This document shows positions 20,916 to 48,575 of a stretch of DNA of 64,000 nt, piece after piece (within the stretch, counting starts at the first letter, position 1; every line of letters begins with the position of its first letter). The stretch covers positions 2,721,355 through 2,785,354 of the forward strand of contig NZ_CP031311.1 of the NCBI RefSeq assembly GCF_004799685.1, given 5' to 3'. The position numbers were made by a program, and so were the translations under genes. The notes beneath the pieces were generated by a model that was not told where the DNA came from, did no database searches, and worked only from the letters and a program-made list of their open reading frames with translations. The DNA comes from Halobellus limi. GTDB lineage: Archaea > Halobacteriota > Halobacteria > Halobacteriales > Haloferacaceae.

Positions 20916-22466
20916 ATGACAGATCGACGGTGGGCGACCCGACGCAGCGCGCTCAAGTTCGGGGCTGTCGGATCCTTCGGAGCCGTAACGGGGCTAGTGC
21001 CGATAGTCTCGCAGGCCGCGCCCGAGGGCATCGAGGACTGTACGACGATCGACGAACCCGGCGAGTACGAACTCAAAAACGACATCACGGGAGGCGGAAC
21101 CCTCGGTCCCGACGACGACGCGTGTATCGAGATTCGATCGGACGGTGTCATACTCGACGGGAACGGATATGTGATCGAAGGCGACGGGGACGGAACGGGA
21201 ATCTTAACCGAAACGGGAGGACTGAACTCGACAATTCAAAACCTCACGGTACGGGGGTTCGAGTACGGAATCGAGGACGATTTTGCTTCCCGATTGACGA
21301 TCAAGTCAGTGACGAGCGAACAGAACCGCGTCGGAATATACGGAGACCTGTCCACGATCACCTGTACGAACTCGACTATTCGTGAAAACGACAACGACGG
21401 GATCAGTTTGTTTAACGGTGAGAGCCTGATCGTACGCGACTGCGAGATCCGTGACAACGGGGGGAATCCCGTCCTTATGTGCTGCCGCAATCGGGTCGTG
21501 TTCGAAGACTGTGTGATCGTTGGGAACGGCGAACCGGCAAGGTTTCCGATGGTTCCGGGCACGAGAATCGAGGGAACGGAGATCGCAGAGTCCAGCGGAG
21601 CGGGTATCAGCACGATATACGGCGACAGGCAAAACACTCCCGACGAGCCGGTAGAAATCACCGACAGTTACATTCACGACAACGACGGCCCCGGAATCGC
21701 ACACGGCAACGGCTATCTCGAAGTCATAGGATGCACGCTCTCCGGAAATCAAGATGGGTACTACGCGGACGGCATCGAAGCGGGAAGCGCCGTACTCAGG
21801 TACAACAACATCGAGGACAACGAAGAGTACGGAGCGTTCTTCCGGGAAGTTTTAGAAGGAGAGGTCGACGCCGAATGCAACTACTGGGGGGACGAGAGCG
21901 GTCCGAAGCACCCGAACAACCCCCGGAGCGATCCGAAAGGCCAACGCGTAACCGCCTCCATCGATGTCGTCCCGTGGTCGGTCGAGCGGATCAAAGACAA
22001 CGAGGGCGTCTGCATCGGCGGGCAGGAACGGGTCGGCTACATCAGCCTGTCGTCGTTCACGAAGGTGACTGGTGACGACGAGGTTGCCTGTGTGCCTGAC
22101 GAGGACGGTTGGGGAGACAGTTTCTACATACGGCGGGAGGCCCGAAACGGCTGGAGCGACGAGGGCGTCGTCGTCGACGTCCCGAACTCGTCGCAGTCCT
22201 TCCGCGGCTATCTCATAACTGCAGAGGGGGACACCCCCAGTAGCGGCGGGCCGAGCGGCGAGGGGCCCTGGGGAGAGGACTGCAGTAGCTGGTTGTTCGT
22301 CAACGAGGAACAGGAGGTCCAGTTCGACATCGAACAGACGGTCCACGACCCAGAGCCGATAGTCGCCCACGAAGCGGTGCAACCCACGAACGGCGACGGC
22401 GACGACGTCGGACTTCCGCTCGATCTGGTCCGGACCACGTTCGCGCCGTTCGCCGAAGCGGAGTAG
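20916..22466 (+). CDS. Tat-exported right-handed beta-helix (NosD/PbH1-type) protein, paralogue 1
   Basis: 516 aa. The N-terminus TDRRWATRRSALKFGAVGSF followed by GAVTGLVPIVSQAAP is a Tat signal with a probable signal-peptidase site near SQAAP. Residues about 40-340 are parallel beta-helix repeats (ILDGNGYVIEGDGDGTGI, LTVRGFEYGIEDD, ITCTNSTIRENDNDGISL, IRDNGGNP) ending in NYWGDESGPKHPNNP, a common cap of NosD-like periplasmic proteins. After about 370 a separate domain (GWSDEGVVVDVPNSSQSFRG, HDPEPIVAHEAVQPTNGDGD) is shared only with the next gene. Beta-helix proteins often bind or cleave polysaccharides; no catalytic residues could be assigned. Probably secreted. Confidence 0.85.
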   Translation: MTDRRWATRRSALKFGAVGSFGAVTGLVPIVSQAAPEGIEDCTTIDEPGEYELKNDITGGGTLGPDDDACIEIRSDGVILDGNGYVIEGDGDGTGILTETGGLNSTIQNLTVRGFEYGIEDDFASRLTIKSVTSEQNRVGIYGDLSTITCTNSTIRENDNDGISLFNGESLIVRDCEIRDNGGNPVLMCCRNRVVFEDCVIVGNGEPARFPMVPGTRIEGTEIAESSGAGISTIYGDRQNTPDEPVEITDSYIHDNDGPGIAHGNGYLEVIGCTLSGNQDGYYADGIEAGSAVLRYNNIEDNEEYGAFFREVLEGEVDAECNYWGDESGPKHPNNPRSDPKGQRVTASIDVVPWSVERIKDNEGVCIGGQERVGYISLSSFTKVTGDDEVACVPDEDGWGDSFYIRREARNGWSDEGVVVDVPNSSQSFRGYLITAEGDTPSSGGPSGEGPWGEDCSSWLFVNEEQEVQFDIEQTVHDPEPIVAHEAVQPTNGDGDDVGLPLDLVRTTFAPFAEAE

Positions 22467-22726
22467 AGAACCGCGCGAGACTCGGAACGGACTACGGGAC
22501 GCAGACGTTCCGCTACGCTCACTCCTTGGGATCGGAAGCTTCACCGTGAATTGTGCCGAGAGATGGTCCGGCCTCGGTCCGTAATCCGACGTCTCGGCGG
22601 GAGCGTTCGTTCGACATCGCTCTCGGCCCGAGAATCGACTGTCGATGATCGGGACTGATCGAGGTAAGCATCGTATTAATCAAATATTAGAATGCTAACA
22701 AAACCGGTTCGCGTGGTCCGTACGGT

Positions 22727-24274
22727 ATGACTGATCGGCGGCGAACGACTCGGCGTGGCGCGCTCAAGTTCGGGGCTATCGGGTCCTTCGGAGCAGTGAC
22801 CGGACTGGTCCCGATGGTCTCACAGGCCGCGCCCGAAGGCATCGAGGACTGTACGACCATCGACGAACCCGGCGAATACGAGCTCAATAACGACATCACG
22901 GGAGGCGGAACCCTCGGTCCCGACGACGACGCGTGTATCGCGATTCAAGCGGGCGATGTCACGCTCGACGGGAACGGCTACACGCTCGAAGGAGACGGCG
23001 ACGGAGTAGGGGTCCGGATCGGGATGTACGGGCCGGAATCGACGGTACGAAACCTCACGGTTCGGAATTTCGATCGAGGGATCGCACCGGAGTACGGGTC
23101 GGTCGTCGCGATCGATTCCGTGACAGTCGAGGGAAACGCCGAGGGGATACGGGGCGAGTTATCGGACCTCACCTGTACGAACTCGGTCGTTCGGGACAAC
23201 GACGGGTACGGCATTTACCTCAGTAACGAGACCCTGACCGTCCGAAACTGCGAGATACGCGACAACGGCGGCGCTCCAATTGGGATGTGTTGCCGTGGGT
23301 CAGTGGTTGTCGAGGAGTGTGAGATCGTCGGGAACGGGGGTCCGGTCTGGTTCACAATAAACCCCGACACGAGAATCGAGGGGAGCGTGATCGCCGGATC
23401 CAGCGAGGAGGGAATCGCAACGGGAGTGGGCGATATGCACAACGCCCCCGACGAGCCCGTTCGCATCACGGACTGTTACATCCACGATAACGAGGGCCCC
23501 GGAATCAACCACCGCAACGGATATTTCGAAGTGAGACAGTGTACGCTCGCCGGCAATCGGGACGGGTACTACGCGGATGGAATCGAAGTGGGCAGCGCCG
23601 TACTCAAATATAACAACATCGAAAATAACGAGGAGTACGGGGCGTTCTTCCGGAAGGAGTTCGAGAACGAAGTCGACGCGGAATGCAACTACTGGGGTCA
23701 CGAGAGCGGTCCGAAGCACCCGAACAACCCCCAGAGCGATCCGAGGGGCGAACGCGTCACCGAAAGCATCGACGTCACCCCGTGGTCGGTCGAGCGGATC
23801 GAAGACGGCGAGGGCGTCTGCATCGGCGGGCAAGAACAGGTCGGCTACATCAGTCAGTCGTCGTTCGCGAAGGTGATCGGCGACGACGAGGTCGCCTGTG
23901 TCCCCAATGGGAACGGCTGGGAAGAGACGTTCTACATACGGCGAGAGGCCCGGAACGGCTGGAGCGACGAGGGCGTCGTCGTCGACGTCCCGAATTCCTC
24001 ACAACGGTTCCGCGGCTACCTCATAACTGCGACGGGAGACACCACTTGCAACGGCGGCCCGAGCGGCGAGGGTCCCTGGGGAGAGGACTGCGGTAGCTGG
24101 GTGTTCGTCGACGAATCGCAGGACGTTCAGGTCGACGTCGAACACAGCGTCCACGACCCCGAGGCGACGGTCGCCCACGAGGCGATCCAGCCCACGAACG
24201 GCGACGGCGAAGAGGTCGGACTCCCGCTCGATCTGGTACGGACCACGTTCGCTCCCTTCGCTGAGTCGGAGTAG
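22727..24274 (+). CDS. Tat-exported right-handed beta-helix (NosD/PbH1-type) protein, paralogue 2
   Basis: 515 aa, clearly a tandem copy of the preceding gene. The Tat signal (RRRTTRRGALKFGAIGSFGA), the TTIDEPGEYEL start of the mature part, the NYWGHESGPKHPNNP helix cap and the C-terminal domain are almost the same. Differences concentrate in the middle coils of the beta-helix (VRNLTVRNFDRGIAPEYGSV against IQNLTVRGFEYGIEDDFASR), the face that would contact a ligand. This suggests duplication followed by diversification of binding specificity. It has its own 260-nt upstream region with the CTAACAAAA element. Function unknown; probably secreted or surface-associated. Confidence 0.85.
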   Translation: MTDRRRTTRRGALKFGAIGSFGAVTGLVPMVSQAAPEGIEDCTTIDEPGEYELNNDITGGGTLGPDDDACIAIQAGDVTLDGNGYTLEGDGDGVGVRIGMYGPESTVRNLTVRNFDRGIAPEYGSVVAIDSVTVEGNAEGIRGELSDLTCTNSVVRDNDGYGIYLSNETLTVRNCEIRDNGGAPIGMCCRGSVVVEECEIVGNGGPVWFTINPDTRIEGSVIAGSSEEGIATGVGDMHNAPDEPVRITDCYIHDNEGPGINHRNGYFEVRQCTLAGNRDGYYADGIEVGSAVLKYNNIENNEEYGAFFRKEFENEVDAECNYWGHESGPKHPNNPQSDPRGERVTESIDVTPWSVERIEDGEGVCIGGQEQVGYISQSSFAKVIGDDEVACVPNGNGWEETFYIRREARNGWSDEGVVVDVPNSSQRFRGYLITATGDTTCNGGPSGEGPWGEDCGSWVFVDESQDVQVDVEHSVHDPEATVAHEAIQPTNGDGEEVGLPLDLVRTTFAPFAESE

Positions 24275-41761: not shown

Positions 41762-42445
41762 TCAGTCCGGTCCGTCGTACGTCGAGCGGATCGTCTCCGC
41801 CAGCACGCCGTCGCGCCGGAACACCACGTAGACGACGACGAACGGCTCGTCGACCGGCCGCAACACGAACACCGCGCGGGGTTGCTCGGCCTCCGGCGGA
41901 ACCGACTCGGCCTCGTCGGCGCGCCGGACGAGCGGGTCGATCGGCGTCACGCCGGTCCGGAACTCCTCGAAGAGGTCCCGAGCGCCGGACTGCTTCGCGA
42001 ACACGTACAGCGCGCCGTTGGGTTCGCCGTCGGTGTTCTTCGTCACGCGGCCGTTCATCGCCGCGTTGTCCGCCTCGGCGACCATCCACGCCCCCTTGGC
42101 GGCCTCGAAGATGCCGGTGACGCCGTCGTAGAACTCGAAGGCGCTCTCGGCGACGACGTCGACGGACTCGAAGCGGGGGTCGCCGTCGGCCCACGCGAGC
42201 GTCGCGTCGATCAGGTTGCCGGCCGAAAGCGAGTCGACGGCATCGGCGAGTTCGCCCTCGTAGCCCGCCGTCCCGACGTACGCCGGGTCGAAGGTCGAAT
42301 CGGCTTCGCCGTCCGCCGCCGGGGACGGGTTCTCAGCGGTCGGGGGCGCGGTGTCCGCCGCGTCGGCGACCGAGACGAGCAGGAGTTCGTCCGGATCACG
42401 CGGTCGCCCGAGCACGCGGTAGCGGCCGGTCGTCGTCGGGGTCAT
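41762..42445 (-). CDS. Haloarchaeal protein of unknown function (DUF6663-like)
   Basis: 227 aa from the ATG at 42445; a GTG two codons earlier is possible. It opens with a strand pair (TGRYRVLGRPRDPDELLLVS), has an acidic linker (about 35-50), then a mixed domain (AESAFEFYDGVTGIFEAAKG, GEPNGALYVFAKQSGARDLF) and ends in strands (RAVFVLRPVDEPFVVVYVVF). I recall the family as DUF6663; no function known. It begins 14 nt after the kdgK stop on the same strand, so the two form a small operon. Confidence 0.72.
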   Translation of the reverse strand: MTPTTTGRYRVLGRPRDPDELLLVSVADAADTAPPTAENPSPAADGEADSTFDPAYVGTAGYEGELADAVDSLSAGNLIDATLAWADGDPRFESVDVVAESAFEFYDGVTGIFEAAKGAWMVAEADNAAMNGRVTKNTDGEPNGALYVFAKQSGARDLFEEFRTGVTPIDPLVRRADEAESVPPEAEQPRAVFVLRPVDEPFVVVYVVFRRDGVLAETIRSTYDGPD

Positions 42446-42458
42446 CGCCACGACGGCG

Positions 42459-43418
42459 TCACCGCGAGATCCCGCCGGCGTTCCGTTCGACGACGGCGTC
42501 GACTTCCTCGGCCGTGACGACGGCCAGGTCGCCGTCGACGGTGCGCTTCAGCGACGCGGTCGCCGCGCCGTAGGCGAGCGCGTCGGAGACGTCGCCGCCG
42601 TCGAGTCGCTTCGCGAGGAAGCCGCCGACGAACGCGTCGCCCGTCCCGATCGGATCGAACGTCTCGGCGTCGTAGACGTCCTGTTCGTACACCTCGCCGT
42701 CGTGGACCGCGAGAGAGCCGCTCTCGCCGCGCGTGAGGACGACCGTCTCGAAGTCGAAGTCACGGAGGAGGCCGTTCGCCACCTCCACGGCGTCGCCCTC
42801 GCGGCCGAGACAGGTCGCCGCGTCGCGCTCGGCGGCGACGAGCACGTCCACGTGCGGGAACAGCGACTCGTAACGCTCGCCGGCCTCCATCGGCGACCAG
42901 AGCTTCCCCCGGTAGTTCAGGTCGAACGCCGTGGTCGTCCCCCTCTCCTGGGCCGCCCGGAGCAGCGCCTCGGTCGTCTCCCCGAGCGTCTGCGAGAGCG
43001 CCGGCGTGATGCCGCTCGTGTAGAAGACGCTCGCGTCGTCGAGCGCGCCGGCCGGGAGCTCCCCGGGGGTCGCCGTCGTCACCGAGGCGTCGGCCCGGTC
43101 GTAGATCACGTCGGTCCCGCGCGGTTCCCCGCCGTGTTCGAGGTAGTACGTCCCCAGCCGCGCGTCGTCGGAACCGTCCCACGCGACGTCCATGCGTACC
43201 CCGTGGCTCCGCAGTTCCGAGACGATCCGGCGCCCGAGCGCCGAGTCCGGCAGCTTCGAGATCCAGGTCGCGTCGCGGCCGAGGCGGGCGGCCGCCACGG
43301 CGACGTTGCTCTCTGCGCCCCCCGTCCGGACGCCGAGTTCGGACGTCCGTTCGAGTCGTTCGCCCCGGGGCGGCGAGAGCCTGAGCATCGTCTCGCCGAA
43401 GGTCACGATGTCGGTCAT
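42459..43418 (-). CDS. kdgK: PfkB-family sugar kinase, probable 2-keto-3-deoxygluconate kinase
   Basis: 319 aa from the ATG at 43418. PfkB features: [15 protein letters not shown] (33-47), [10 protein letters not shown], and the anion-hole/catalytic motif [13 protein letters not shown] with base Asp261. The N-terminus ([20 protein letters not shown]) closely resembles haloarchaeal KDG kinases of the semi-phosphorylative Entner-Doudoroff pathway. A fructokinase is the main alternative and would fit the fructose-releasing enzymes in the window, which otherwise lack a fructose kinase. Confidence 0.83.
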
Positions 43419-43534: not shown

Positions 43535-45847
43535 CTAGTCGTCGGGCGCGTCCGCCGCGAGCAGTTCGGGATACGCGAAGCACCGCGCGATCCGCTCCTC
43601 CGCGTCAGCCCGATCGAAGAGGGCACCCGCGTCGCGGTCGGGATCGGTGTACCACTCGTGGACGACTCCGAACTCGCTGGTGTTCTCGAGTGCGATCGGG
43701 GCGTACGTCGCGACCGCGTGGACCGAGAAGGGCTCGCCGTGTGGGACGCCGGAGACGTCGTCGAGCCGTTCGAACGGCGTCGGATCGGGTGACCCGAATC
43801 CGGCAACCGTCACTTCGTCGTCGGCGATCCCGATCAACTCACCGTCGGGGTCGGAGACAGACAGCGCGAGTCGCCGGTGGGTATCCGGGTCCACTGCGAC
43901 CGGATCGCGGTCGGAAACCGACTCACCGAGTCGGGCCACCGTCTCCTCCAGCGCGTCTGTGACCGCGACGCCCGCGACGACGTCGGCGCCGACGAGGTCG
44001 CGGAGGGAGTCGGCCGACAGCACCGCGTCGGGGTCGGCGTTTTCGGGGGCTGCCACCGGGAGCGTCGAGTACTGCCCGGACGACGGATCGGCGAGCGCGT
44101 CTTCGAGCGCGTCGAGTCGCCGTCCGAGCCGGTCCCGCCGCTCGGAGAGTTCGGTTCGCTCCTCGCGAAGCTCTCTCACCTCCGCTTCGAGACGGTCCCG
44201 CTCGGCCCGGAGGTCCTCGCCCGCCCGCTCGTGGCGCTCGACGACCAGCGACCGAACCTCCCGGAGCCGCTCGTACTCGTCCTTCAGCTCACGGAGTTCG
44301 GCGTGTCGCTCCCGGATCCGTTCCAGTCGCGACTTCTGCTCGCGGCGGTGGAACACCCGAACGGGCAGCGTACGGTCGACGGCGCGCTCGATCGTCCGCC
44401 GGCGCTGTCGGAGGAGCGGTTCGAGCGTCTGCTCCCACCGCGTCACGGGGTCAGCGTCTGCCCCCGGAACCGGGTCGTCGATGCGGTCGCGGACCTCGTC
44501 GGCCAGGGCCTCGACCGCTTCGGGAAACGGATGCGAGTGCACCACGTCCTCGGCTCGTCGTTTCAGTTGCCCCGTGAGGAGGTAGGTGGTTAGGGCCTCG
44601 TCGTCGATCGATCCGATCGGATCGGTCTCCTCGGCCGCGGACTCGACGGTCGAATCGAGTTTCGGCTCGTCGAGGTGGACCAGATCGATCGAAGCGGCCT
44701 CGTCTCGGACGCGCGCGAACGCCTCCGGTGAGACCGGGAGGTCGTCCGCCTCGCCGTCGGACAGTGCCGCGACGGACTCCCGATCGAGAACGGCACGGGC
44801 CCCGCGGAGGGCATCCTCAACCGAGGAGTGACGCGTCTCCTTCCGTCCGATCGCCGCGTCGGTCTCCTCGCGTTCCGCCGCCGTCTCGTAGAACTCGCGG
44901 AGGTCGTCGACGGGCGCGCTGAACCCGCCCCCGTCGAGCGAGAACAGCGTGGTGTCGTTCGTCCACCCGCCCGCCGGTCGGCTGGCGACGAGGTCGGTCT
45001 CGACGGCCGAATCGACGATCAGATCCGCCGCGATCCGGTTCCGCGTCCGGATGTAGGCGTCGTCCGCGACCGCCGCCTGATCCGTCCCGATGAGGCCGTA
45101 GGCGTCGATCGGACTCCCTTCGAGCGCGAGCGAATCCGACTCGACGGATCGAGGGTCCGACTGGAGTTCGAGTTCGAGCGGATACGGATCGCCGTCGCCG
45201 AGGCCGAGCAGGACGCGGAGCTCGCGCAGGGCGGCGTAGGCGTTGTAGTAGAGGGTCGAATCGCCCGGCGGGACGGAACTGGTGGACTCAAGCCCGTCCA
45301 GTCGCGGCACGGACCCGATCCCGAAAGTAGCCGCCTGTGGCGAGAGCGTGTCGACGAGGCCGGCCAGCAGGGGGATGAGTCCGCTCCCGGTGCCGCCGCC
45401 GAGCGAACTGAGAAGCCAGACGTGATGGGCCTCCGGGTGCCCCTCGACCCGTTCCGATCCGGCGCCGAGTACGCCCGAGAGCTCCTCGACGAACGGATCG
45501 ACGCTCTCGGCGTTGTCGACGCAGTAGCGACCGACGGGGCGCCGACGGGTCGTCCCGCCGTCGTACGCTAGTTCGGCCGACACGTCGAGATAGTCGAGTT
45601 TCTCGCGGTCGTCCGAAAAGCGGCTCGTCGGTGCGTCCAGGTGGATCTTCCTGGCCTCCGCCGACGCGTTCGCGTCGAGGTCGGGGACGCTGGAGTCGAT
45701 CGCGACGTAGGAGAACGCCGGGTCGGGTTCGTATCGATCGACGGCGTCCTCGACGGCCGAGAGCATTCGACAGCCGGCGCTTCCGAGGCCGATCACCGTC
45801 ACCGCTCCCGCCGGCGGAGGCGAGAGCGGTCGTCCGCCGTTCGGCAT
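43535..45847 (-). CDS. Tubulin/FtsZ-superfamily GTPase-like protein with long coiled coil
   Basis: 770 aa. The N-terminal half is tubulin-like: [12 protein letters not shown] (about 18-29) is the first glycine-rich phosphate loop, and [18 protein letters not shown] (148-165) is the GGGTGSG tubulin signature that binds GTP phosphates. A region with [13 protein letters not shown] and [18 protein letters not shown] then follows. Residues about 502-590 form an uninterrupted charged coiled coil ([20 protein letters not shown]), and a 180-residue mixed C-terminal domain ends the protein. It is not FtsZ or CetZ; it fits the divergent Tubulin_2/FtsZ-like group suggested to remodel membranes or scaffold large complexes. 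No signal peptide. A TATA-like ATTTATAC lies upstream on the minus strand (about 45885). Function unknown. Confidence 0.82.
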
Positions 45848-46016
45848 ACCGGTCCATACGAGAACAGGTCAATAAGCGTTCCTGTCAGGTATAAATCAAT
45901 ATCTCGGATAGCGAACCGGACAGTCAGGCATCGGATCGGATATCGGGGCGTAACCGTGCGATCCGACGGGACGTCGAGGTCGAGGCCGCGCGGCGACCCG
46001 GCGGTCGGACGGCCGA

Positions 46017-48575
46017 TCAGTGCCCCGGGTAGTCCCGCTCGAACCGATCTCCGATCTCGTCGCCGTCGATGTGGATGACCACCGGGCGACCGTGCGGGCA
46101 GGCGTAGGGGTTCTCGCAGTCGTCGAGCGCTTCGAGGAGTTCCACGACCGAGCCCTCGGTGAGCGAGGTGTTCCCGGTGACGGAGGGGTAACACGCGAGG
46201 TCCGCGAGGAGGTCGTCGGCGACCGCCTCGACCGTCTCGGCCCCGCCGTCGCCCTCGGCGACGAACGCCGAGAGGACGTCTCGGACCAGTTGCGGGTCCA
46301 GCGCCTCGGCGAAGACCGCCGGCACCGACCGGACCGCGACCGTTCGGTCGTCGACGCGCTCGGAGCGGAACCCCAGATCCGAGAGCGCCTCCTCGTAGGC
46401 GTCGAACAACGCCGCCTCTCGGGCGGTGAGTTCGAGTTCCACCGGCTCCGCCAACGCCTGCGTGACGACGTCGCCGTCGAGTTCGGCCCGCAGGCGCTCG
46501 TAGTTCACCCGCTCGTCCGCGGCGTGCTGGTCGACGAGGATCAGCCCCGAGTCGGCCTCGGCGACGACGTAGGTGTCGTGTAACTGCCCGAGGATCCGCA
46601 TCGAGGGCAGGGAGTCGAACCGCGGCTCCAGCGTCGCCGACTCGCCCCGCAGGTCGCGCTGGACGGTCGGGCCGACGATACCCGTCGGCCGCGACCCCCG
46701 GGGCGATTCTCCCTGTCCTCCCGACCGAGCCCGACCGTCGGCACCGTCGGCTGCGGGCGCTTCAGAGGTCGATCGCCCCTCGGCGTTCGGGGGCTTTTCG
46801 GGGGGCTGTCGCCGGTCGCTGGACGACCTCGAATCCGGGTCGTCGCGGGCGGTAGACGGCGACGACGCCTCAGCGTCGGCCGCCCCGGACTTCGATCCGG
46901 CGGAGCGGTCCGCGTCCAGTCCCGGCGACAGGTCGGAACCGGAGCCGTTGCCGGACCAGTCGGAATCAGAGCCGTTGCCGGACAGATCGGTCTCCTCCGA
47001 CGCCGACTCCGCCGTCGGGTCGCTGCGCTCGCCGCCGAGTCCGTCGACCGTCCAGGCGTCGTCGTCCGTCGGATCCACGCCGGTCGCGGGCCCGCGTTCC
47101 CGACTCCCGGACTCCGGCTCGGCCAGAGATCCCTCGCCGTCCGCGTCGGGGTCTGCCGCGGCGTCCGAGTCGGCCACGTCGTCCGAGTCGGCCGCGGCAT
47201 CACCGTCGGCGGTCGCCGGTGGGGGACCGTGCCCCGCGCCGCCGCGGACCTCCGAAGTCGGCGACTCCGGCCGGACCTCGGTCTCGTCCGGTGCCGAGCG
47301 GCCCCGCGGCGCAGTCGATCGAATCAGTCCCTCGTCGAGCAGCGCGGTCCGTACGGCGTCGGTGACGGCCGTCCGGACGCCCGATTCGTCGTCGAATCGG
47401 ATCTCCATCTTCCGCGGGTGGACGTTCACGTCCACGGTGCCGGCGGGGACGTCGACGAACAGCACGGCGAACGGGTAGCGGTCGCTCGCCAACTGCCCGC
47501 CGTAGGCGTCGAGGACGGCCTCCCGGAGAACGCCGTCGGTGACGTACCGGCCGTTGACGAACGTCGAGAGGTACTCGCGGGTGCTTCGGGTCGTCTCGGG
47601 GTGGCTGACCAGGCCTCGCACGCGCTCGACGGTCGCCGTCGCGTCCGTCGAGTCGGGTTCGGCGTCGACTTCGATCATCGACTCGGCCACCTCGCGGCCG
47701 TACACCGACAGCACCGCCGACCGGAGGCTCCCGCGGCCCTCGGTGGCGAACACCTCGCGGCCGTCGTGTTCCAGCGAGATGGCGACGTCGGGGTTCGCGA
47801 GCGCGTAGTGCGTGACGACCGTGTTGACGTGGTCGAACTCCGTCGCGGTCGTCTTCAGGAACTTCTTGCGGGCGGGCGTGTTGAAGAAGAGGTCCTCGAC
47901 CTCGACGACCGTCCCCTCGGGGCAGCCCGCGGCCCCGACGGCGGTCACCTCGCCGCCCTCGATTCGGATTTCGGTGCCGGAGGCGTCGCCGCCGCGCGTT
48001 TCGCGGTTCCCACCGTCGCCCGGGCGCGCTCGGGGTTTCGTCCGGATCGTGAGCCGGGAGACGGCACCGATGGTGTGCAGCGCCTCGCCGCGGAAGCCCA
48101 GCGTGCCGACGCCCGCCTCGAGGTCGTCGATGCCGTCGATCTTGCTGGTGGTGTGCTCTTCGACCGCGCGTTCGGCCGACTCGCGGTCCATTCCGACGCC
48201 GTCGTCCCGGACGCGGACGCCCTCCGTACCGCCGGCGTCGACGGCGACCGAGATCCGGTCGGCGTCGGCGTCGAGGCTGTTCTCGACGAGTTCCTTGACG
48301 ACCGAGGCGGGGCGTTCGACCACTTCGCCGGCGGCGATCTGTCGGACCGTCCGGTCGTCGAGTTCGCGGATGGTCGGCGTCCCGGTCGGCCGGTTCCATT
48401 CCTCTGGCGTGTCCCCGGTACTATCCTCGTCCGCCGGCGTATCCCCGGGACTGTCTTCGTCCGTCAGCGTGTCTCCGGCACTGTCCTCACCCGCCGGCGA
48501 TTCCTCCGCGTGATCCCCACCCGCCGGCGATTCGTCCTCGCGGTCGGCGTCCGTCGGTGCCCCGTCCCCGCTCAC
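46017..48575 (-). CDS. mutL: DNA mismatch repair protein MutL with acidic repeat extension
   Basis: 852 aa from a GTG at 48575 that overlaps the Nudix stop as GTGA; no other start lies between it and the conserved domain. Residues 1-67 are an extra acidic segment of 10-aa repeats (DEDSPGDTPA type). Then the GHKL ATPase: RTVRQIAAGEVVERPASVVK, ENSLDAD, DDGVGMD, GFRGEAL. A long Ser/Asp/Glu linker (about 440-620) leads to the C-terminal dimer/endonuclease domain with VDQHAADERVNYERL, matching the DQHA(X)2E(X)4E nicking motif, and CPHGRP near the end. It directs strand-specific mismatch repair. No mutS is adjacent in the window. Confidence 0.95.
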   Translation of the reverse strand: MSGDGAPTDADREDESPAGGDHAEESPAGEDSAGDTLTDEDSPGDTPADEDSTGDTPEEWNRPTGTPTIRELDDRTVRQIAAGEVVERPASVVKELVENSLDADADRISVAVDAGGTEGVRVRDDGVGMDRESAERAVEEHTTSKIDGIDDLEAGVGTLGFRGEALHTIGAVSRLTIRTKPRARPGDGGNRETRGGDASGTEIRIEGGEVTAVGAAGCPEGTVVEVEDLFFNTPARKKFLKTTATEFDHVNTVVTHYALANPDVAISLEHDGREVFATEGRGSLRSAVLSVYGREVAESMIEVDAEPDSTDATATVERVRGLVSHPETTRSTREYLSTFVNGRYVTDGVLREAVLDAYGGQLASDRYPFAVLFVDVPAGTVDVNVHPRKMEIRFDDESGVRTAVTDAVRTALLDEGLIRSTAPRGRSAPDETEVRPESPTSEVRGGAGHGPPPATADGDAAADSDDVADSDAAADPDADGEGSLAEPESGSRERGPATGVDPTDDDAWTVDGLGGERSDPTAESASEETDLSGNGSDSDWSGNGSGSDLSPGLDADRSAGSKSGAADAEASSPSTARDDPDSRSSSDRRQPPEKPPNAEGRSTSEAPAADGADGRARSGGQGESPRGSRPTGIVGPTVQRDLRGESATLEPRFDSLPSMRILGQLHDTYVVAEADSGLILVDQHAADERVNYERLRAELDGDVVTQALAEPVELELTAREAALFDAYEEALSDLGFRSERVDDRTVAVRSVPAVFAEALDPQLVRDVLSAFVAEGDGGAETVEAVADDLLADLACYPSVTGNTSLTEGSVVELLEALDDCENPYACPHGRPVVIHIDGDEIGDRFERDYPGH
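48409..48538 (-). repeat. 30-bp coding tandem repeat in the MutL N-terminus
   Basis: Units begin at 48409, 48439, 48469 and 48499, with a partial fifth, each encoding a 10-aa acidic repeat of the type DEDSPGDTPA. The first three are similar (GTGTCCCCGGTACTATCCTC type) and the outer ones diverge. Multiples of three keep the mutL frame open when copy number changes. Confidence 0.8.

Follow-up and report, generated by a model that had tools for sequence, protein, structure and literature searches.

Within the 64,000-nucleotide stretch of the Halobellus limi genome analyzed here (the window), a gene for a divergent tubulin-like protein, referred to here as the solo gene, lies between mutL and a kdgK-type sugar kinase gene, with all three on the minus strand (Table 1). 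Its open reading frame of 770 codons begins with ATG, and the boundaries are exactly those placed by an earlier note made on this DNA. That note had described the gene as lying by itself between mutL and kdgK and having a promoter of its own, a description that the analysis supports. A TATA-like element precedes the start codon and is kept as (C/T)TTATT, in the same place, at the loci of the two orthologs in the genus (L063 and L064; three solo orthologs in all). At a distance of 24 to 29 nt from the ATG, this element would imply a leaderless mRNA. The kdgK gene is preceded by a conserved element of its own, found also in genomes without the tubulin-like gene; an operon of the solo gene with kdgK was ruled out on this basis. 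Given the two separate upstream elements, the solo gene is probably monocistronic. Most of the genus's genomes without this gene have mutL running straight into kdgK, and we therefore regard the solo gene as an addition at this site; it may have been gained at the junction or lost elsewhere. The solo gene and its orthologs adjoin kdgK and the gene for a DUF6663 protein (window positions 41762-42445), which most members of the genus encode next to kdgK. Elsewhere in the window (20997-24274), two neighboring reading frames have near-identical N-termini (MVSQAAPEGIEDCTTIDEPGEYEL...), apparently as a result of tandem duplication.

Table 1. Coordinates of the solo gene, its sequence features, and associated genes (window positions unless a locus is given)
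Feature	Coordinates	Strand	Basis or remark
Tubulin-like gene, solo paralog (P0001)	43535..45847	-	ORF; Tubulin_2 (FtsZl1-type), 770 aa
N-terminal peptide MPNGGxPLSP, residues 1-10	45818..45847	-	Alignments; confined to the three solo orthologs
T1 loop GLGSAG, residues 20-25	45773..45790	-	Aligned to CetZ T1
Basic T3-region motif, residues 98-111	45515..45556	-	Branch conservation
T4 signature GGGTGSG, residues 150-156	45380..45400	-	Sequence, Pfam, profile alignments
Candidate T6 loop, residues 246-257, then candidate helix H7	45077..45112	-	Alignment reading
Coiled coil, residues 503-586	44090..44341	-	Heptad periodicity and AlphaFold2 helix
C-terminal FAYPEL motif, residues 757-762	43562..43579	-	Branch conservation of A758, Y759, P760, E761
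TATA-like element CTTATT, 24-29 nt upstream of ATG	45871..45876	-	Sequence; putative promoter
kdgK-type sugar kinase gene, downstream	42459..43418	-	Insertion-site marker, outside the system
mutL, upstream	46017..48575	-	Insertion-site marker, outside the system
Exported protein beside C2 paralog	L077:9533-10336		Sole copy in genome

The assignment of the solo protein to the tubulin/FtsZ superfamily, which the earlier note had proposed, is borne out by profile searches. Pfam model PF13809 (Tubulin_2) matches residues 18-257 with a score of 52 bits (cut-off, 27; E 8.6e-14); PF00091 gives 27.3 bits, under its cut-off of 33. Using hhalign, the family profile was matched to haloarchaeal CetZ/FtsZ over residues 15-215 with a probability of 98% (E 2.1e-13), in an alignment that spans T1, T4, and the conserved Asn 202, and to canonical haloarchaeal FtsZl1 with an E value of 6.8e-17. 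A profile of 16 relatives searched against PDB sequences matched CetZ2 (4b45; E 1.1e-7), FtsZ, and alpha-tubulin, and the single P0001 sequence retrieved only coiled-coil look-alikes from the PDB. The FtsZ C-terminal domain is not among the Pfam matches of the solo protein and the similarity to the CetZ/FtsZ profile ends near residue 215, in agreement with the view that the protein is neither FtsZ nor CetZ. PADLOC and NCBIfam matches were confined to the coiled coil, and no defense-system assignment was therefore made. The above-threshold PF13809 match, the GGGTG(S/T)G signature with a T1 glycine loop, and an extended coiled coil together place the protein in the Tubulin_2/FtsZl1 family. Genes of the vWA, kinase, GTPase, or OmpA type, which are usual though not universal near FtsZl1, were not seen beside the solo gene. 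The solo protein is a divergent, FtsZl1-type Tubulin_2 protein that is predicted to bind GTP.

The two glycine-rich motifs singled out in the 770-residue product by the earlier note, GLGSAG and GGGTGSG, were confirmed at residues 20-25 and 150-156. In T1, residues G20, G22, and G25 are kept in at least 80% of the sub-branch to which the solo protein belongs (described below). In the T3 region, G98, R101, R103, R107, and D111 are conserved in the branch, and the sequence from D111 onward aligns with the tubulin stretch that runs up to the GGGTGSG of tubulin. A candidate T6 loop, followed by a candidate helix H7, can be read from the alignments: P246 and a [DN]E-type motif are conserved in the branch, and the corresponding stretch in canonical FtsZl1 aligns with LLVDND of CetZ. 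The authors who described FtsZl1 in 2010 made no confident placement of T6 and the helix after it in that family (PMC2875224). Residues 300-320 form the candidate T7 stretch; the branch alignment contains no conserved acidic residue there, which makes canonical hydrolysis by the solo protein doubtful, and the FtsZ-type T7 motif NxDxxD is absent. Of 38 alignment columns that are conserved among the other branch members, the solo protein keeps 34; its two orthologs in the genus share 63% and about 40% identity with it.

The long coiled coil reported earlier is genuine. Residues 503-586 (∼85 residues) display a 3.5-residue hydrophobic periodicity that was matched by 0 of 5,000 shuffles, and this segment contains no prolines and two glycines. 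It also falls within a single continuous helix predicted by AlphaFold2 at residues 467-586, with a pLDDT of about 66-86 at residues 501-580; the rest of the model is unreliable. The AlphaFold2 alignment consisted of two sequences only (mean pLDDT, 40.6 for the whole protein and 34.2 for residues 1-345), and because it was too shallow, the models were considered unusable. A Foldseek search with the low-quality model gave TubZ and FtsZ as best matches, at a nonsignificant E value of 0.016 or worse and a TM score of about 0.13. The coiled coil may mediate dimerization of the solo protein.

This layout was known before. Starting from the haloarchaeal protein Huta_2051 of Halorhabdus utahensis, Makarova and Koonin described FtsZl1 in 2010 as an N-terminal FtsZ-like domain with an extended coiled coil and a C-terminal domain, noted that the genes are often found beside vWA, kinase, or GTPase genes, and predicted that these proteins drive membrane remodeling (PMC2875224). 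The PF13809 proteins were likewise set apart as a known divergent FtsZ-like group (PMC9871819). Since FtsZl1 had been described with this architecture, the coiled coil of the solo protein is not a new fusion, and the suggestion in the earlier note of a novel kind of filament or tether in archaea mostly fails; the solo protein may form filaments. As in Huta_2051, a GGGTGSG-containing FtsZ-like domain, a coiled coil, and a C-terminal domain are present with no recognizable FtsZ/tubulin C-terminal domain. However, the solo protein has 770 aa compared to 1051 aa for Huta_2051, a long branch with full support sets its group apart from canonical haloarchaeal FtsZl1, and its relatives are paired with an exported single-membrane-helix protein. 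With CetZ (CetZ2, 4b45), the solo branch shares T1, T4, and the stretch up to Asn 202, but its profile shows no similarity past about residue 215. CetZ is not known to have a coiled coil of this kind. The superfamily GTP-binding signature is shared with FtsZ; unlike FtsZ, the solo protein has no FtsZ C-terminal domain in its Pfam matches and no NxDxxD T7 motif.

Two further published systems bear comparison. Halo.Tub is a CetZ-like Halobacterota group with quasi-tandem copies and C-termini of limited similarity to CetZ (PMC9871819). The solo protein's branch is likewise haloarchaeal, divergent, and tubulin-like, with quasi-tandem copies (L065, L066, L069, and L091); the two may or may not be the same group. 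Sll0445, a Tubulin_2 protein from Synechocystis, is associated with proteins of pilus assembly, and phototactic motility is impaired in the mutant; its gene cluster encodes FtsA- and DivIC-like proteins, with an actin/Hsp70-type ATPase gene nearby (PMC9880817). By description, it resembles the solo branch in its Pfam domain and in an Hsp70-type neighbor such as that at L092, and it differs in being bacterial and clustered with FtsA-/DivIC-like genes.

Proteins similar to P0001 were detected in 13 of 148 genomes of the taxonomic family and in 14 of 242 across the class, with no relatives on viral contigs or plasmids. In a tree confined to rows of the branch and of canonical FtsZl1, the branch containing the solo protein (25 rows) stands apart from canonical haloarchaeal FtsZl1 (9 rows), and both sides are fully supported. 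Branch proteins measure about 765-950 aa versus about 1050-1200 aa for canonical haloarchaeal FtsZl1. At all 20 non-solo loci of the branch that were examined (L065-L076, L077, and L091-L097), the tubulin-like gene is adjoined by one that encodes an exported protein made up of a domain of some 150 residues, a single C-terminal membrane helix, and a short tail; most members have an N-terminal hydrophobic stretch, with the C-terminal membrane helix about 150 residues further on. These loci were picked by the tubulin-like gene alone, and the neighbors were recognized by clustering and pairwise tblastn before an HMM was made. The HMM matches 20 of 20 partner-linked loci, a count that is not independent because the HMM was built from those loci, and it finds nothing at any of the 10 canonical FtsZl1 loci or the 3 solo loci. 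Among the 20, the tubulin-like genes of L074 and L076 look damaged or oddly framed, that of L075 is split over two frames, and the exported-partner reading frame of L066 is short. Pfam matches of the exported protein are subthreshold only, some of them to TRAP-beta, CARDB, and similar Ig-like families. At four loci (L065, L066, L069, and L091), two or three tubulin-like genes lie close to the exported-protein gene, with a short form of about 770 aa and a long form of about 890-950 aa.

Other features of these loci were recorded as well. Some short forms at the multigene loci depart from GGGTGSG (SGGTGSG and AGGTGSG). Genes for vWA-like proteins, Ser/Thr-kinase-like proteins, or Hsp70-type ATPases are found near some branch loci; an Hsp70/DnaK-type ATPase gene and a vWA-like gene sit beside the tubulin-like gene at L092:4718-6415 and L068:5231-6754, as tested with Pfam in L092 only. 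In two genera (L073 and L075), the region of the tubulin-like gene contains ThiF-domain genes and encodes a 74-76-aa protein that by eye is possibly ubiquitin-like, with no Pfam match. At L094 and L095, two HEAT-repeat-like proteins of about 950-1050 aa are encoded near the tubulin-like and exported-protein genes.

The solo gene and its two orthologs form a supported clade and occur in 3 of the 17 genomes of the genus. A second tubulin-like gene, the paralog on contig C2 (L077:10486-12993), is of the partner-linked type, and C2-type paralogs occur in the same three genomes and in no others of the 17. If the two distributions were independent, the chance of this co-occurrence would be 1 in 680, a figure that overstates its weight because two of the three genomes are close relatives. 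No membrane-protein gene was found near the window gene or at the loci of the two solo orthologs, and the genome contains none beyond the copy beside the C2 paralog. The tree gives no resolved grouping of the solo clade with the short forms found at tandem loci. In single pairwise NG86 estimates against H. rarus, the solo gene has a dN of 0.249, a dS of 0.46, and a dN/dS of about 0.54; for kdgK, mutL, and other neighbors, dN is 0.035-0.10 and dN/dS is 0.14-0.31, and for the C2 paralog these values are 0.029 and 0.09. Such rapid change around a held core is compatible with a shift in role, with relaxed constraint, or with an arms race. What is unusual, then, is a partner-linked branch plus a partnerless, fast-evolving, patchy solo offshoot.

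Our tentative interpretation, to which we give somewhat less than an even chance, is that the solo protein binds GTP and serves as an accessory subunit in a tubulin-like system that is anchored to the membrane and whose genes lie elsewhere in the genome. The N-terminal domain would use T1, the basic T3 region, and T4 to bind GTP and would switch conformation or assemble with other tubulin-like subunits. The coiled coil would either dimerize the protein or hold it off the assembly, and the conserved C-terminal domain (SEFG...FAYPEL) would dock onto a common component. The exported single-helix protein beside the C2 paralog would act as an envelope anchor that the solo protein uses in trans. Such action in trans is favored by the co-occurrence of solo and C2-type genes in three genomes and by the four loci at which short and long tubulin-like genes sit together with a membrane-protein gene; the 34 retained columns speak for constraint on the solo protein. 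Against an accessory subunit, the dN/dS of about 0.54 allows weak constraint, the window gene has no adjacent membrane-protein gene, the solo clade is not grouped with the tandem short forms, and a conserved acidic residue is missing from T7.

Three alternatives were weighed against this accessory-subunit interpretation. The protein may instead be a self-contained coiled-coil tubulin-like scaffold or tether that dimerizes with itself and has no dedicated partner, as suggested by its lone position and own promoter-like element, intact pocket motifs, strong coiled coil, and a solo-specific N-terminal peptide conserved in three of three orthologs. We consider this unlikely: all 20 of the non-solo branch loci examined are tied to a membrane-protein gene, the genomes with a solo gene always hold a partner-linked paralog too, and the coiled coil does not single out the solo protein because coiled coils are general in FtsZl1. 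Alternatively, the gene may be a relaxed, dispensable paralog, left without its partner and drifting toward elimination. The elevated dN relative to its neighbors, the dN/dS value, the presence in 3 of 17 genomes, and the mutL-kdgK junction that is empty in most others are what such a paralog would show, but drift of this kind seems improbable for a gene that has stayed complete and undamaged in three species despite differences of up to 60% between the copies, that keeps 34 of 38 family-conserved columns, and that has a conserved promoter-like element. Finally, a stress, surface-sensing, or conflict role, in which the protein is the nucleotide-binding part of an envelope-monitoring signaling complex rather than cytoskeleton, would suit the vWA-like, Ser/Thr-kinase-like, and Hsp70-type ATPase genes near relatives, the ThiF genes and small, perhaps ubiquitin-like protein near two of them, the patchy distribution and fast evolution, and the phototactic motility role and pilus assembly protein association of Sll0445 (PMC9880817), but it is doubtful given that the PADLOC matches are coiled-coil look-alikes only and that no vWA, kinase, or Hsp70-type gene lies near the window gene, such genes being found at some loci only.

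Should the ordinary explanation apply, the solo gene would be another lineage-specific paralog in a family of patchy distribution. The experimental work that we found on FtsZl1/Tubulin_2 is limited to a cyanobacterial motility phenotype (PMC9880817), and the adjacent, conserved single-membrane-helix partner offers a concrete, testable anchor for these proteins. A solo copy in genomes that also hold a partnered copy constitutes a natural experiment on whether such proteins work alone or in pairs. A broader and rather speculative possibility is a heteromeric tubulin-like machine in haloarchaea, in which solo or short coiled-coil GTPases co-assemble with C2-type or long ones and are anchored to the envelope by the exported membrane-helix protein. 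If true, archaea would have their own version of a paired tubulin system, one that is directly connected to the cell surface by design.
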